Of a stretch of 32,090 nt of DNA, positions 15,584-22,664 are shown one piece after another. The stretch comes from Phenylobacterium sp. (GTDB lineage: Bacteria; Pseudomonadota; Alphaproteobacteria; Caulobacterales; Caulobacteraceae). Position 1 is the first letter of the stretch. Each line of letters begins with the position of its first letter. The translations under genes were made by a program, and so were the position numbers. The notes under the pieces were generated by a model that was not told where the DNA came from, made no database searches, and saw only the letters and a list, made by a program, of their open reading frames with translations. Location: NCBI RefSeq assembly GCF_016793225.1, contig NZ_JAEUMN010000076.1, positions 1 through 32,090 on the forward strand. Reading direction: 5' to 3'.

Positions 15584-15695
15584 AGCGCGTCCCGAAAAGC
15601 GGGAACCGGCTTTTCGAATCCAGACGCGCTCAAGCGCTTGATCTGGAGCCTCATCATCCCGTTCAGACGGTTCCGTCCGAACGGTGAGGCTCTAG
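15582..15695 (+). repeat. Dispersed palindromic repeat, copy A
   Basis: This 114-bp element lies between the convergent metZ and hslO genes and contributes both stop codons (TAG at each edge). It has two composite stems. The first has outer GCGCGTC/GACGCGC and inner GAAAAGC/GCTTTTC. The second has outer GAGCCTCA/TGAGGCTC and inner CCGTTCAGACGG/CCGTCCGAACGG with one mismatch. It aligns along its whole length, in inverted orientation, with copy B at 18305-18416. Such palindromic elements are dispersed in alphaproteobacterial genomes. It may also act as a bidirectional terminator. Confidence 0.85.
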
Positions 15696-16585
15696 GCCGC
15701 CTGCAGCGCGTCGGGCTCCACGGCGTACACGCGGCTGCAGTACTCGCAGGTGACGCGGATCTTCCCGTCCGCCTCGACCATCTCGCCCCGCTCGGCGGCG
15801 TCGAAGCTCTTCAGCACCGTCTCGATGCGCTCCTGGCTGCAGCGGCAGAAGGCGCGCAGGGGCCTGGAGCCGAAGACGCGGACGCCGTCCTCGTGGAACA
15901 GCCGGAACAGCAGGGTGTCGGAAGAGAGGCCGGTGTCGAGGAGTTCGTCCTCGCCGATGGTCTCGAAGAACGCCTGCGTGCGATTCCAGGCCTCCACGGT
16001 GTCGCCCCGCGCCTCGTCGGCGGCGATGTGCTGGATAAGGAAGCCGCCGGCCCGCCACGACTCGTCCCCGCGGCCGACCGCGAGGCGCACCCGCGTCGGC
16101 GTCTGCTCGGACTGGGCGAAGTACTGCTCGGCGCACAGGGCCAGGGTCTCGCCCTCGATGGCCGTGACGCCCTGGTAGCGATCCATGTCCGGGCCCTGGT
16201 CGACGGTCATCATGAAGAAGCCCTCGCCCAGCAGGGTGCGGGCGCCGGCGCCCGAGAAGCCGTGGCTCGCCTGTTCGACCGCGTCGCCGTCGAACCGACA
16301 ATAGCCGCGCAGACCGCCCGAGGTGTCGTAGTCGGCCACGACGTAGCGCACGGGCCCGTCGCCCCGCGCCTCGACGATCAGCCGCCCGTCGAACTTGAGG
16401 TTGGAGCCCACGAGCGCGGCCAGCGCGCACGCCTCGCCCAGGAGGTTGGCCACGGGCGCAGGGTAGTCGTGACCGGTCAGGATCTCGTCTATCGCAGGGC
16501 CCAGCCGGGCCACGCGCCCGCGGACGGGCTCCCCCTCGATCTGGAACGCGCCGACAAGGTCGTCGGGAATGGAAGTCTCGGACAT
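15692..16585 (-). CDS. hslO: Hsp33 redox-regulated chaperone
   Basis: Hsp33 is a cytosolic holdase switched on by oxidation of its zinc centre. The 297-aa protein has the N-terminal core domain (LGEACALAALVGSNLKFDGR, YVVADYDTSGGLRGYCR) and the C-terminal redox switch: C247 and C249 in FCRCS, then C280 and C283 in CEYC, the CxC/CxxC zinc set. Everything needed for activation is present. The start at 16585 (MSETSIPDD) is the first methionine with a normal N-terminus; the frame stays open far upstream only because of high GC. It is followed by repeat copy A. Confidence 0.94.
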   Translation of the reverse strand: MSETSIPDDLVGAFQIEGEPVRGRVARLGPAIDEILTGHDYPAPVANLLGEACALAALVGSNLKFDGRLIVEARGDGPVRYVVADYDTSGGLRGYCRFDGDAVEQASHGFSGAGARTLLGEGFFMMTVDQGPDMDRYQGVTAIEGETLALCAEQYFAQSEQTPTRVRLAVGRGDESWRAGGFLIQHIAADEARGDTVEAWNRTQAFFETIGEDELLDTGLSSDTLLFRLFHEDGVRVFGSRPLRAFCRCSQERIETVLKSFDAAERGEMVEADGKIRVTCEYCSRVYAVEPDALQAA

Positions 16586-18276: not shown

Positions 18277-18304
18277 CGACGTCTCCCCCGCTTCGGGGCG
18301 CAGC

Positions 18305-18416
18305 CTAGAGCCTCGCCCGTTCAGACGGAACCGTCTGAACGGGACAATGAGGCTCTGAATCAAACGCTTGAGCGGGTTCGGATCCGAAAGCCGGTTCTCA
18401 CTTTTCGAAACGCGCA
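18305..18416 (-). repeat. Dispersed palindromic repeat, copy B (inverted relative to copy A)
   Basis: Read on the minus strand, this matches copy A from GCGCGTTTCGAAAAG through CGGTTCCGTCTGAACGGG to GAGGCTCTAG, by eye about four bases in five. Its second stem is perfect: CCCGTTCAGACGG pairs with CCGTCTGAACGGG across AA. The first stem has decayed (GCGCGTTTC no longer pairs well). It lies upstream of the serine hydrolase, between it and the AIM24 gene. Together the two copies bracket hslO and the hydrolase. Confidence 0.85.
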
Positions 18417-21547: not shown

Positions 21548-21571
21548 ACCCGCCTCGACGCTCGTAACGGC

Positions 21572-21629
21572 GTCCCTCCCTTAATGGGGAGGGACAGACC
21601 GCGCATAGCGCGGTCAGGGTGGGGAAGCC
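21572..21629 (+). repeat. Left terminal repeat of the DUF559 cassette
   Basis: This 58-bp arm has three parts. Hairpin H1 is GTCCCTCCC-TTAATG-GGGAGGGAC. Hairpin H2 is ACCGCGC-ATA-GCGCGGT (21598-21614). A conserved tail, CAGGGTGGGGAAGCC (21615-21629), follows. It is the inverted counterpart of 22071-22126. The DUF559 stop codon (21614-21616) lies in this arm, so the arm supplies the end of the gene. I see no target-site duplication outside the two arms. Confidence 0.85.
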
Positions 21630-22018
21630 CCGGTCGCGTCCGGCGAAGCCCGGCGTGTCCGCCCATGCGCCAACGGCGCCGCCTGGAGATGGGCGACGAT
21701 GCTCTCCATCACGCCAATCATGTTCGAGCGAACGGCGCCGGTCGGGACGCGCAAAACCGTGAACCCATGCCGGCGCAGGATCGCGTCCCGCATCGCATCG
21801 TGCGCGGCCTGCGGCTCTTCACCGTGCTGGCCACCGTCGACCTCCACCACGAGCCGCCGCGAGTAGCAGACGAAATCGAGGAAGAAGCCCCGGAACGGCG
21901 CCTGCCGTCGGAAATGGTAGCCTTCGCCGCGGAGGCGCTTCAGGCGGCTCCAGAGGATCACTTCCGGCCGGCTCATGTCGGCGCGGAGCCGGCGCGCACG
22001 TTCGATCTCAGGCCGCAT
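21614..22018 (-). CDS. DUF559 (Vsr-like, PD-(D/E)XK) putative endonuclease
   Basis: This ~134-aa protein has the DUF559 core: ERARRLRADMSRPEVILWSR, LRGEGYHFRRQAPFRGFFLD, then FVCYSRRLVVEVDGGQH and LRRHGFTVLRVPTGAV. The FRRQ-x(7)-LDFVC-x(5)-LVVEVDG pattern fits the very-short-patch-repair (Vsr) endonuclease fold, with D and E-x-D as likely metal ligands. Activity has not been established for most members. I start at the ATG at 22018; a start at 22114 would encode the right repeat. GC and codon use look less extreme than in def or fmt. Matched inverted repeats on both sides and its position inside the def-fmt neighbourhood suggest a mobile or domesticated cassette. Confidence 0.78.
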   Translation of the reverse strand: MRPEIERARRLRADMSRPEVILWSRLKRLRGEGYHFRRQAPFRGFFLDFVCYSRRLVVEVDGGQHGEEPQAAHDAMRDAILRRHGFTVLRVPTGAVRSNMIGVMESIVAHLQAAPLAHGRTRRASPDATGASPP

Positions 22019-22070
22019 GGCGCGAGAATGTTCGCTATTTGTTCTGAAGTCAAGGTCGGGTGCAGGTCCC

Positions 22071-22126
22071 GGCTTCCCCACCCTGCTCGCCTCCGGCGAG
22101 CTGTCCCTCCCCATTAAGGGAGGGAC
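22071..22126 (-). repeat. Right terminal repeat of the DUF559 cassette
   Basis: Read on the minus strand, this 56-bp arm matches the left arm: identical H1 (GTCCCTCCC-TTAATG-GGGAGGGAC) and identical tail CAGGGTGGGGAAGCC. H2 is replaced by CTCGCC-GGA-GGCGAG, a different sequence that still forms a perfect hairpin. Immediately right of it, CCCCGC (22133-22138) pairs with GCGGGG (22143-22148), another hairpin that may be part of the element or the def terminator. Confidence 0.85.
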
Positions 22127-22154
22127 ATCTTCCCCCGCCGTCGCGGGGAGGGAA

Positions 22155-22664
22155 CTAGGCCGCCTTGGCCTGCTTCTTGACCTTCTTGATGGCCTGTTCG
22201 CGCTTCAGGCGGGACAGGTGGTCGATGAACAGCACGCCGTCGAGGTGGTCCATCTCGTGCTGGATGCAGACGGCGAAGAGGCCCTCGGCGTCCTCTTCGA
22301 TCTGCTCGCCCTTGTAGTTCAGGTAGCGCAGCTTCACCCGGGCCGGGCGTTCGACCTCGTCGTAGATCTCGGGCACCGACAGGCAGCCCTCCTCGTACGG
22401 CGCGGTGTCGTCCGAGGCCCAGAGGATCTCGGGGTTCACGAAGTAGCGCGGCTGGCGGTCCTCGCCTTCCCGGGCCAGGTCCATCACGATGACACGCTTG
22501 GGAACGCCGATCTGGATGGCGGCCAGGCCAATGCCCGGCGCCGCGTACATGGTCTCCAGCATGTCGTCCATCAGGGCGCGCAGGTCGTCGTCAACCGTCG
22601 CGACCGGCTGGGACACCTGCTTCAGGCGGGCGTCGGGAACGACGAGGATCTCTCTCAGGGCCAT
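22155..22664 (-). CDS. def: Peptide deformylase
   Basis: Def removes the formyl group from nascent N-termini with a catalytic metal. The 169-aa protein has all three signatures: [10 protein letters not shown] (GxGxAAxQ), EEGCLSVPE (EGCLS, metal cysteine) and QHEMDHLDG (HEMDH, two histidines and catalytic glutamate). I start at the ATG at 22664 ([11 protein letters not shown]), as usual for the family. An in-frame ATG at 22709 would add 15 residues with no ribosome-binding site. It normally precedes fmt directly; here the DUF559 cassette and a lipoprotein gene intervene. Confidence 0.95.

Follow-up and report, generated by a model that had tools for sequence, protein, structure and literature searches.

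The 32,090-base stretch of DNA analysed here, referred to below as the window, carries next to def a gene for a DUF559 protein that is flanked by two inverted copies of a double-hairpin repeat. Direct reading of the sequence bore out the preliminary description of this locus: its coordinates and sequences are correct, the gene is bracketed at 21572-22126 by two inverted double hairpins, and both ends carry the same hairpin (H1) and the same 15-nt tail. The features are the following.

21572..22126 (555 bp), no strand assigned: whole cassette, end to end of the inverted repeats, between def and a lipoprotein-like ORF.
21572..21595, forward strand: H1 of the left copy, GTCCCTCCCTTAATGGGGAGGGAC, with pyrimidine arm GTCCCTCCC, loop and purine arm GGGAGGGAC.
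21597..21615, forward strand: H2 of the left copy, GACCGCGC-ATA-GCGCGGTC, a hairpin set in the turn that joins the purine arm to the tail.
21616..21624, forward strand: putative third-strand (reverse-Hoogsteen) tail of the left copy, AGGGTGGGG.
21614..22114, reverse strand: ORF of 166 aa for a DUF559 (PF04480) Vsr-like nuclease, domain at 21686-22003.
22076..22084, reverse strand: putative third-strand tail of the right copy, AGGGTGGGG.
22085..22101, reverse strand: H2 of the right copy, GCTCGCC-GGA-GGCGAGC.
22103..22126, reverse strand: H1 of the right copy, same sequence as the left H1.

The left H2 is followed by AGGGTGGGGAAGCC, and the right copy ends in the same tail, which is 15 nt long in both copies once the shared preceding C is counted. 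The two H2 stems, read directly, differ in sequence yet pair on both sides, and the DUF559 stop codon TGA (21614-21616, reverse strand) falls on the junction of H2 and tail, in agreement with the preliminary description. The long inverted repeat of the cassette measures 31 nt, with 94% complementarity and arms 493 nt apart, and the four cassette folds (two copies on both strands) have z scores of -4.7 to -5.6 against 200 dinucleotide shuffles, among which 0, 0, 0 and 1 folded as well. Since the longest DUF559 ORF begins at 22114, within the right H1, and the domain does not begin until near 22003, translation probably starts at Met33, about position 22018. A further hairpin, TTCCCTCCCCGCGACGGCGGGGGAA on the reverse strand, was seen by eye at 22128-22155, between the right repeat and the def stop; it may be a decayed third repeat. 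The window also holds another intergenic repeat family, a 106-bp inverted pair at 15593-15697 and 18303-18407 that is 85% identical and contains a palindrome of the form CCGTTCAGACGG..CCGTCTGAACGG.

The preliminary description had overlooked that the tail AGGGTGGGG is the mirror (the backward, uncomplemented copy) of the H1 purine arm GGGGAGGGA, with one A replaced by T. Under a pairing rule in which a G-C pair takes G, and an A-T pair takes A or T, as third base, both window copies show on one strand a 5' pyrimidine arm, a purine arm and a 3' reverse-Hoogsteen tail that is a perfect 8/8 mirror, and exactly two perfect triplex motifs occur in the whole 32,090 bases, both at the DUF559 gene. 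The repeat is thus predicted to be a class II, purine-motif, intrastrand triplex repeat of the BoxC/PIT/TM kind, in which H1 would form the duplex, the chain would turn at the base of H1, the tail would lie along the purine strand, and H2 would stand in the turn. Repeats of this kind, on record since the 1990s, are described from E. coli and many other genomes; the E. coli repeat forms a stable triplex in vitro, none having been detected in vivo according to the same account (PMC4666352). The window repeat shares with those of Holder et al. (2015) the order of pyrimidine arm, purine arm and reverse-Hoogsteen tail, the placing of G over G-C and of A or T over A-T, the intergenic copies and inverted pairs, and an E. 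coli copy (#9) beside ycjD. It departs from their search definition in that its second loop holds the hairpin H2: the form with H2 is a variant of the class II intrastrand-triplex repeat because Holder et al. searched for loops of 1-6 nt (PMC4666352), and in the window copies 19-21 nt, holding H2, separate purine arm and tail. The triplex observed in vitro is that of the E. coli motif, and one in the H2 variant is a prediction from sequence.

The mirror relation extends well beyond the window. The mirror, H2, boundary and coupling tests were made on the first 100 DUF559 loci, with permutations that leave relatedness in. Near these domains lie 178 distinct purine/pyrimidine hairpins, and 173 were scored on both strands, the five with one strand only being dropped. 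A perfect 8/8 mirror tail stands within 60 nt of 147 of the 173, compared with 68 for a direct copy; for asymmetric arms the figure is 143/169, whereas permuting arms among hairpins gave 38 on average and 52 at most. Arm types keep their own tails, GGGAGAAGG going with GGATGAGGG, GGGGAGGG with GGGTGGGG, GGGAGGAGG with GGAGGTGGG and GGGGGAAGG with GGATGGGGG, and the median distance from arm to tail, taken per arm type, is mostly either 2-4 nt or 13-25 nt. Among the distinct long linkers, 53/68 can fold a stem of at least 5 bp, with 44 different stems, against a mean of 5.4 (maximum 13) for chimeric linkers; therefore H2 covaries, which answers positively the check proposed in the preliminary description. 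Among 140 loci examined, 59 have a perfect motif on both sides, and in 45 of these the tails point inwards.

A G-quadruplex was considered in place of the triplex, since purine arm and tail together often contain four G-runs. It was rejected where, as in arm GGGAGAAGG with tail GGATGAGGG, the mirror rule preserves the places of A, something a quadruplex has no need of; this rejection applies to the forms with longer linkers and does not extend to the short-linker forms.

The two window copies also match the whalefall-1 RNA model (RF01762) over its full length, at 21570-21626 and 22074-22128, with 35.6 and 29.2 bits (E-values 1.4e-7 and 1.7e-5), both under the gathering score of 37, and they share its layout, H1-CAG-H2-CAGGGTGAGG. 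With an E-value setting, whalefall-1 was found at DUF559 flanks in five of seven loci (E 2.5e-5 to 0.16); in the other two, the match lies about 3.3 kb from DUF559 (L074) or there is none (L039). Rfam at its gathering cut-off returned, for 13 loci, one cobalamin riboswitch and no repeat. In PMC2864571 whalefall-1 is described as a noncoding RNA restricted to whale-fall metagenomes; the present matches suggest that it is a DNA repeat of this triplex kind rather than an RNA.

The protein encoded between the repeats matches PF04480 with 99 bits (cut-off 20.6) and a DUF559 model of NCBIfam, PRK09767, with 65.8 of 218 bits (E 3.5e-18), well under the curated cut-off. DUF559 was the only family above its cut-off in the Pfam scan of this ORF, which gave no match to the Vsr family model and none to a known transposase class, with MTES_1575 just below its cut-off. 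A structure model (pLDDT 77.9) has its best fold matches in NGO0050 (3hrl, E 4e-7) and the homing nuclease I-Bth0305I (3r3p, 4e-4), with a weaker one in Vsr (1vsr, 6e-3); the window protein thus combines, in the predicted structure, a Vsr-like fold with the residues E...D...ExDGxxH...D, and the EDxHD residues are invariant or nearly so across the first 100 DUF559 loci. Fold and E-D-ExD-H-D residues are those of Vsr, I-Bth0305I, NGO0050, YcjD and Caulobacter VsrA, and the accounts of VsrA and YcjD consulted make no mention of flanking repeats of the DUF559-cassette kind.

The association of such repeats with DUF559 genes was measured on 180 loci: 7 from this genome (window included), 109 from the genus, 50 from the phylum and 14 on named genome contigs. 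The genus sample comprises 29 + 20 + 40 + 20 of the places listed with strong scores, about fifteen listed ones being left out, and the phylum sample 50 listed places, roughly half of the list being left out. The left and right 400-bp flanks were compared for an inverted match; the flank width, the inverted score of at least 40 and the strict and relaxed motif limits were our own choices. An inverted-repeat score of at least 40 was reached by 124 of the 177 testable loci, many of which are syntenic among relatives and so not independent. By sample, bracketed loci number 4/6 testable in this genome; 21/28, 20/20, 27/39 and 18/20 for the best, next, middle and low-scoring genus loci; 16/30 for the best and only 8/20 for the low-scoring phylum loci; and 10/14 on named contigs, where 12 of 14 loci outscore all the sliding windows taken along the same locus (18 to 62 per locus).

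As a control we took YraN, another nuclease-fold gene. YraN tends to sit in conserved gene groups and is perhaps an easy control, so def was added as a second one. At the same score of at least 40, no inverted bracket was found at YraN (0/60) or def (0/29). At 131/180 DUF559 loci one or both sides carry a strict triplex motif, against 0/60 for YraN and 1/29 for def, and a relaxed triplex motif or an inverted bracket stands within 400 bp at 166/180, against 0/60 and 2/29. The preliminary description had asked whether the repeats are commoner near DUF559 genes than elsewhere. By pattern count they are: of 57 matches in this genome, 8 have a DUF559 domain no more than 400 bp away, compared with an expectation of about 0.1. 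That excess is inflated, since repeats at these very genes supplied the pattern; the unbiased test, the flank comparison with the two controls, agrees.

The bracket was also found on named contigs of a Deltaproteobacteria MAG and a Syntrophobacterales MAG, and a Falkowbacteria MAG carries the motif with a bracket score of 34, under the cut-off of 40. Of 36 plasmid records with a DUF559 match, seven were inspected: two from Deinococcus (L200, L204) and one from Pseudanabaena (L203) are bracketed, those of Picosynechococcus (L201) and Neisseria (L206) have direct repeats at the gene, a Sphingomonas plasmid (L205) has one motif upstream of it (by eye), and a Synechocystis plasmid (L202) has DUF559 with no bracket. 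Catalytically intact DUF559 genes are frequently bracketed by such repeats in several bacterial phyla. Six homologues that lost at least two of the six conserved active-site residues (L236, L241-L245), representing about three independent losses, have neither motif nor bracket (0/6), against 166 of the 174 loci with at most one residue altered (p 7e-8). The eight intact loci with neither are L001 (at a contig end), L020, L023, L030, L224, L269, L274 and L281. As judged from active-site residues, the repeats go with a working nuclease. In L242 and L243 the dead-site domain is the C-terminal part of a longer protein resembling an RNA methyltransferase, presumably of the TrmJ type, and there are no repeats.

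Comparison at the nucleotide level of the bracketed loci among the first 100 gave 39 syntenic and 286 non-syntenic pairs, the latter defined by no flank match of at least 200 bp and no extension beyond 150 bp. Twenty-nine of the non-syntenic pairs match over at least 80% of the repeat-to-repeat unit, the other 257 of the 286 sharing less, and 49 of the 58 ends of these 29 matches fall within 10 nt of the repeat ends. The unit of repeat, gene and repeat therefore sits at non-homologous places, its homology mostly ending at the repeat ends. Two cassette copies in this genome are 97% identical and lie in different contexts; since one is at a contig end, the pair may be an artefact of assembly or strain mixture. 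Copies lie inside operons as well, in paa of Deinococcus (L204) and pnt of Sphingomonas (L205). The 39 syntenic pairs reflect vertical descent; the element may be partly domesticated and, given the many syntenic loci, may move little at present. Where a DUF559 match is divided between two adjacent pieces (G044:C223, G041:C32, G230:C6), the copy is probably decaying.

At the def locus itself, the preliminary statement that def and fmt are normally adjacent proved roughly right: fmt lies behind def in 25 of 29 other genus loci, at a distance of 390-607 bp in 21 of these, and the gap holds (by eye) a small lipoprotein-like ORF on the other strand. The window DUF559 protein has no match at these 29 def loci, so that the insert is not a constant feature of relatives. 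The cassette part of the preliminary reading is supported. The intergenic DNA of the relatives is too diverged for the exact junction to be read, and no clean empty site was found at their def-fmt loci or in the two E. coli records examined that lack ycjD. By eye, the interval behind def holds other palindromic elements in L168, L170, L185 and L186, among them a triplex-type pair with no gene in L185, and looks like a hot spot for repeats.

Repeat and protein also vary together. Among 81 loci, the nearest non-syntenic protein neighbour has the same arm and linker class in 41% of cases, compared with 6.6% (maximum 22%) after permutation, and the share of pairs with a common linker class rises from 45% at 35-45% protein identity to all 54 pairs at 65% identity or more. 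Judged from these comparisons, repeat type appears to follow protein relatedness, with a contribution from genome relatedness.

Across genomes, one motif type was scanned in 200 members of the phylum, with a DUF559 cut-off of about 50 bits, again our choice; the patterns used for genome counts were drawn from repeats beside DUF559 genes. The motif occurs in 46 of the 200 genomes, the reversed pattern in none. Own genome excluded, 36 genomes have both motif and DUF559, 10 DUF559 only, 10 the motif only and 143 neither (p 1.7e-21); the respective numbers are 24, 6, 0 and 20 in the same class and 12, 4, 10 and 123 in other classes. In six of the 36 genomes with both, the motif count is just one or two and may reflect no more than the repeats of the cassette itself. 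Some of the DUF559 negatives may be misses, since the PF04480 search missed the E. coli control genome although K-12 has ycjD; a search with YcjD, run without positive control, gave no match in the ten motif-only genomes or in G056. The contrast is weaker within the genus, where one hairpin type occurs in 28/37 genomes that have a strong DUF559 match and in 6/22 that lack one (own genome excluded). Two genus genomes go against the rule: G056 has 43 copies of this hairpin type and no DUF559, and G049 has 61 copies, its single DUF559 gene belonging to another repeat type. In the phylum, G199, G220 and G258 have 126, 93 and 49 copies of the scanned motif and no DUF559 match; in these three and in G056 the repeats may be remnants, point to missed genes, or depend on another enzyme. 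Genus genomes have up to 11 DUF559 matches each, and within one genome the genes stand beside different repeat types (by eye).

Gene-less copies of these repeats exist as well, many of them in closely spaced inverted pairs. For this genome, a second pattern returned 57 matches and its reversed control one. Apart from the 8 near DUF559 domains, these matches belong mainly to the L005 and L006 types and frequently stand in closely spaced inverted pairs; of the window's own type the pattern finds three copies, two at the gene. Of 60 genus genomes, 49, this one included, lack any match to the Y1_Tnp domain of RAYT (PF01797), and a RAYT as mover is unsupported in this genome. A Y1 protein is present in some repeat-rich genomes (G049, G054, G056).

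Both partners are found in E. coli K-12. YcjD is annotated as a DUF559 protein in the MG1655 record, and ycjD (1351407-1351760) lies 168 bp from TMECO #9 (1351204-1351239), one of the 23 repeats in Table 1 of Holder et al. (PMC4666352). By simple arithmetic, 18 repeat loci give a probability of about 0.003 that one falls 200 bp or less from a particular gene as large as ycjD. The 2015 survey, in the sections that deal with TMECO sites, reports no mobility functions near them and no link to a gene, and a word search of its main text found none of ycjD, DUF or endonuclease (PMC4666352). Of 5426 E. coli genomes, 3333 carry the ycjD region over 80% of its length, and two records without ycjD, sought as empty sites within the species, carry an efflux operon there and no clean gap. 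By eye, the K-12 locus (L197, 5197-5475) shows TMECO #9, a decayed second repeat overlapping the 3' end of ycjD, and a tandem copy of GAATATTCTCCAGCACCGTCTCC from that 3' end. A search of the open-access literature did not find a link between DUF559 or YcjD and these repeats; the repeats and the protein family were each already known, and their pairing appears to be new.

REP and REPIN sequences with their enzyme RAYT (TnpA-REP) are palindromic inverted pairs, with the gene bracketed by its own repeat type and gene-less pairs dispersed in the genome. The DUF559 element is alike in having its gene between inverted copies of its own repeat and in the gene-less inverted pairs of the genome, which here belong to other repeat types than the three-copy type of the window. 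It is unlike them in its enzyme, an EDxHD nuclease and not an HUH transposase, with no Y1_Tnp match in this genome, in the mirror tail of its repeat, and in numbering up to 11 DUF559 matches per genome. From this anatomy and the lack of a Y1 match, we propose that the nuclease recognises the folded repeat, cuts, and spreads the cassette and its satellites. The DUF559 protein would recognise its own repeat in single-stranded DNA, for instance on the lagging strand, folded into hairpin and triplex, and would cut at or near it; cutting would, now or formerly, mobilise or copy the bracketed unit and the short gene-less pairs, and DUF559 would fill the place that RAYT holds for REP/REPIN repeats. 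On balance we favour this reading of the locus, a REP/RAYT-like element made of an EDxHD nuclease between inverted class II triplex repeats, in which recognition, cutting and mobilisation are what we infer. The preliminary description had likewise placed a Vsr-like protein in the transposase role, which is supported indirectly by the boundaries of the unit, the coupling of protein and repeat, the intact active sites and the absence of RAYT; as a whole its interpretation is supported in part.

The strongest competitor, which we hold to be unlikely, is that DUF559 clears folded repeats at replication forks as a structure-specific or mismatch-repair nuclease, standing near its substrate and moving nothing. 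The Vsr-type fold of the model and the many syntenic loci are in keeping with this, as is Caulobacter VsrA, a DUF559 protein described as underlying a DNA damage response in the absence of a cytosine methylase (PMC12907096). Such housekeeping by itself leaves unexplained the two-sided inverted bracket, the unit ends at repeat ends, the up to 11 matches per genome with different repeat types, and the copies inside the pnt (L205) and paa (L204) operons.

It is distinctly improbable that the DUF559 genes are passengers, inserted into existing repeat pairs that were spread by replication slippage or another enzyme. Some IS elements do insert into REPs, and gene-less pairs are common, one of them (L185, by eye) in the same def interval; ten genomes, moreover, have repeats with no DUF559. 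An inserted passenger would not be expected to have a protein whose relatedness predicts the repeat type, nor dead-site homologues devoid of repeats, and none of the 20 DUF559-negative genomes of the same class has the scanned motif. We give a little less credit still to a homing-type selfish nuclease, which would cut the empty allele and have the cassette copied in by repair, with the repeats as boundary or protection: I-Bth0305I is the second-ranked fold match, yet non-syntenic cassettes and genome-wide gene-less repeats exceed what allelic homing would produce, and no intron or intein context was seen. That the repeats are terminators or regulatory hairpins with no special tie to DUF559 is hardly credible, for strong hairpins do stand beside gene ends but YraN (0/60) and def (0/29) are never bracketed, the mirror tail is foreign to terminators, and the E. 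coli elements are stated, with reference to earlier work, to have no terminator activity (PMC4666352).

A wider reading can be offered tentatively, with slightly less than even confidence: DUF559 cassettes may form a new class of minimal mobile DNA in which a single Vsr-fold nuclease recognises triplex-folded single-stranded DNA and moves or copies the unit between the repeats along with its gene-less satellites, BoxC/PIT/TM repeats of E. coli and other bacteria being the satellites or scars of this class and whalefall-1 being partly its ends. The association described here gives the BoxC/PIT/TM repeats a candidate enzyme and DUF559 a candidate substrate, and the question can be tested in E. 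coli K-12, which carries both ycjD and 23 repeats. If the nuclease moves the repeats, this would be repeat mobility without a classical transposase and, to our knowledge, the first case in nature of an intrastrand DNA triplex serving as a recognition signal.
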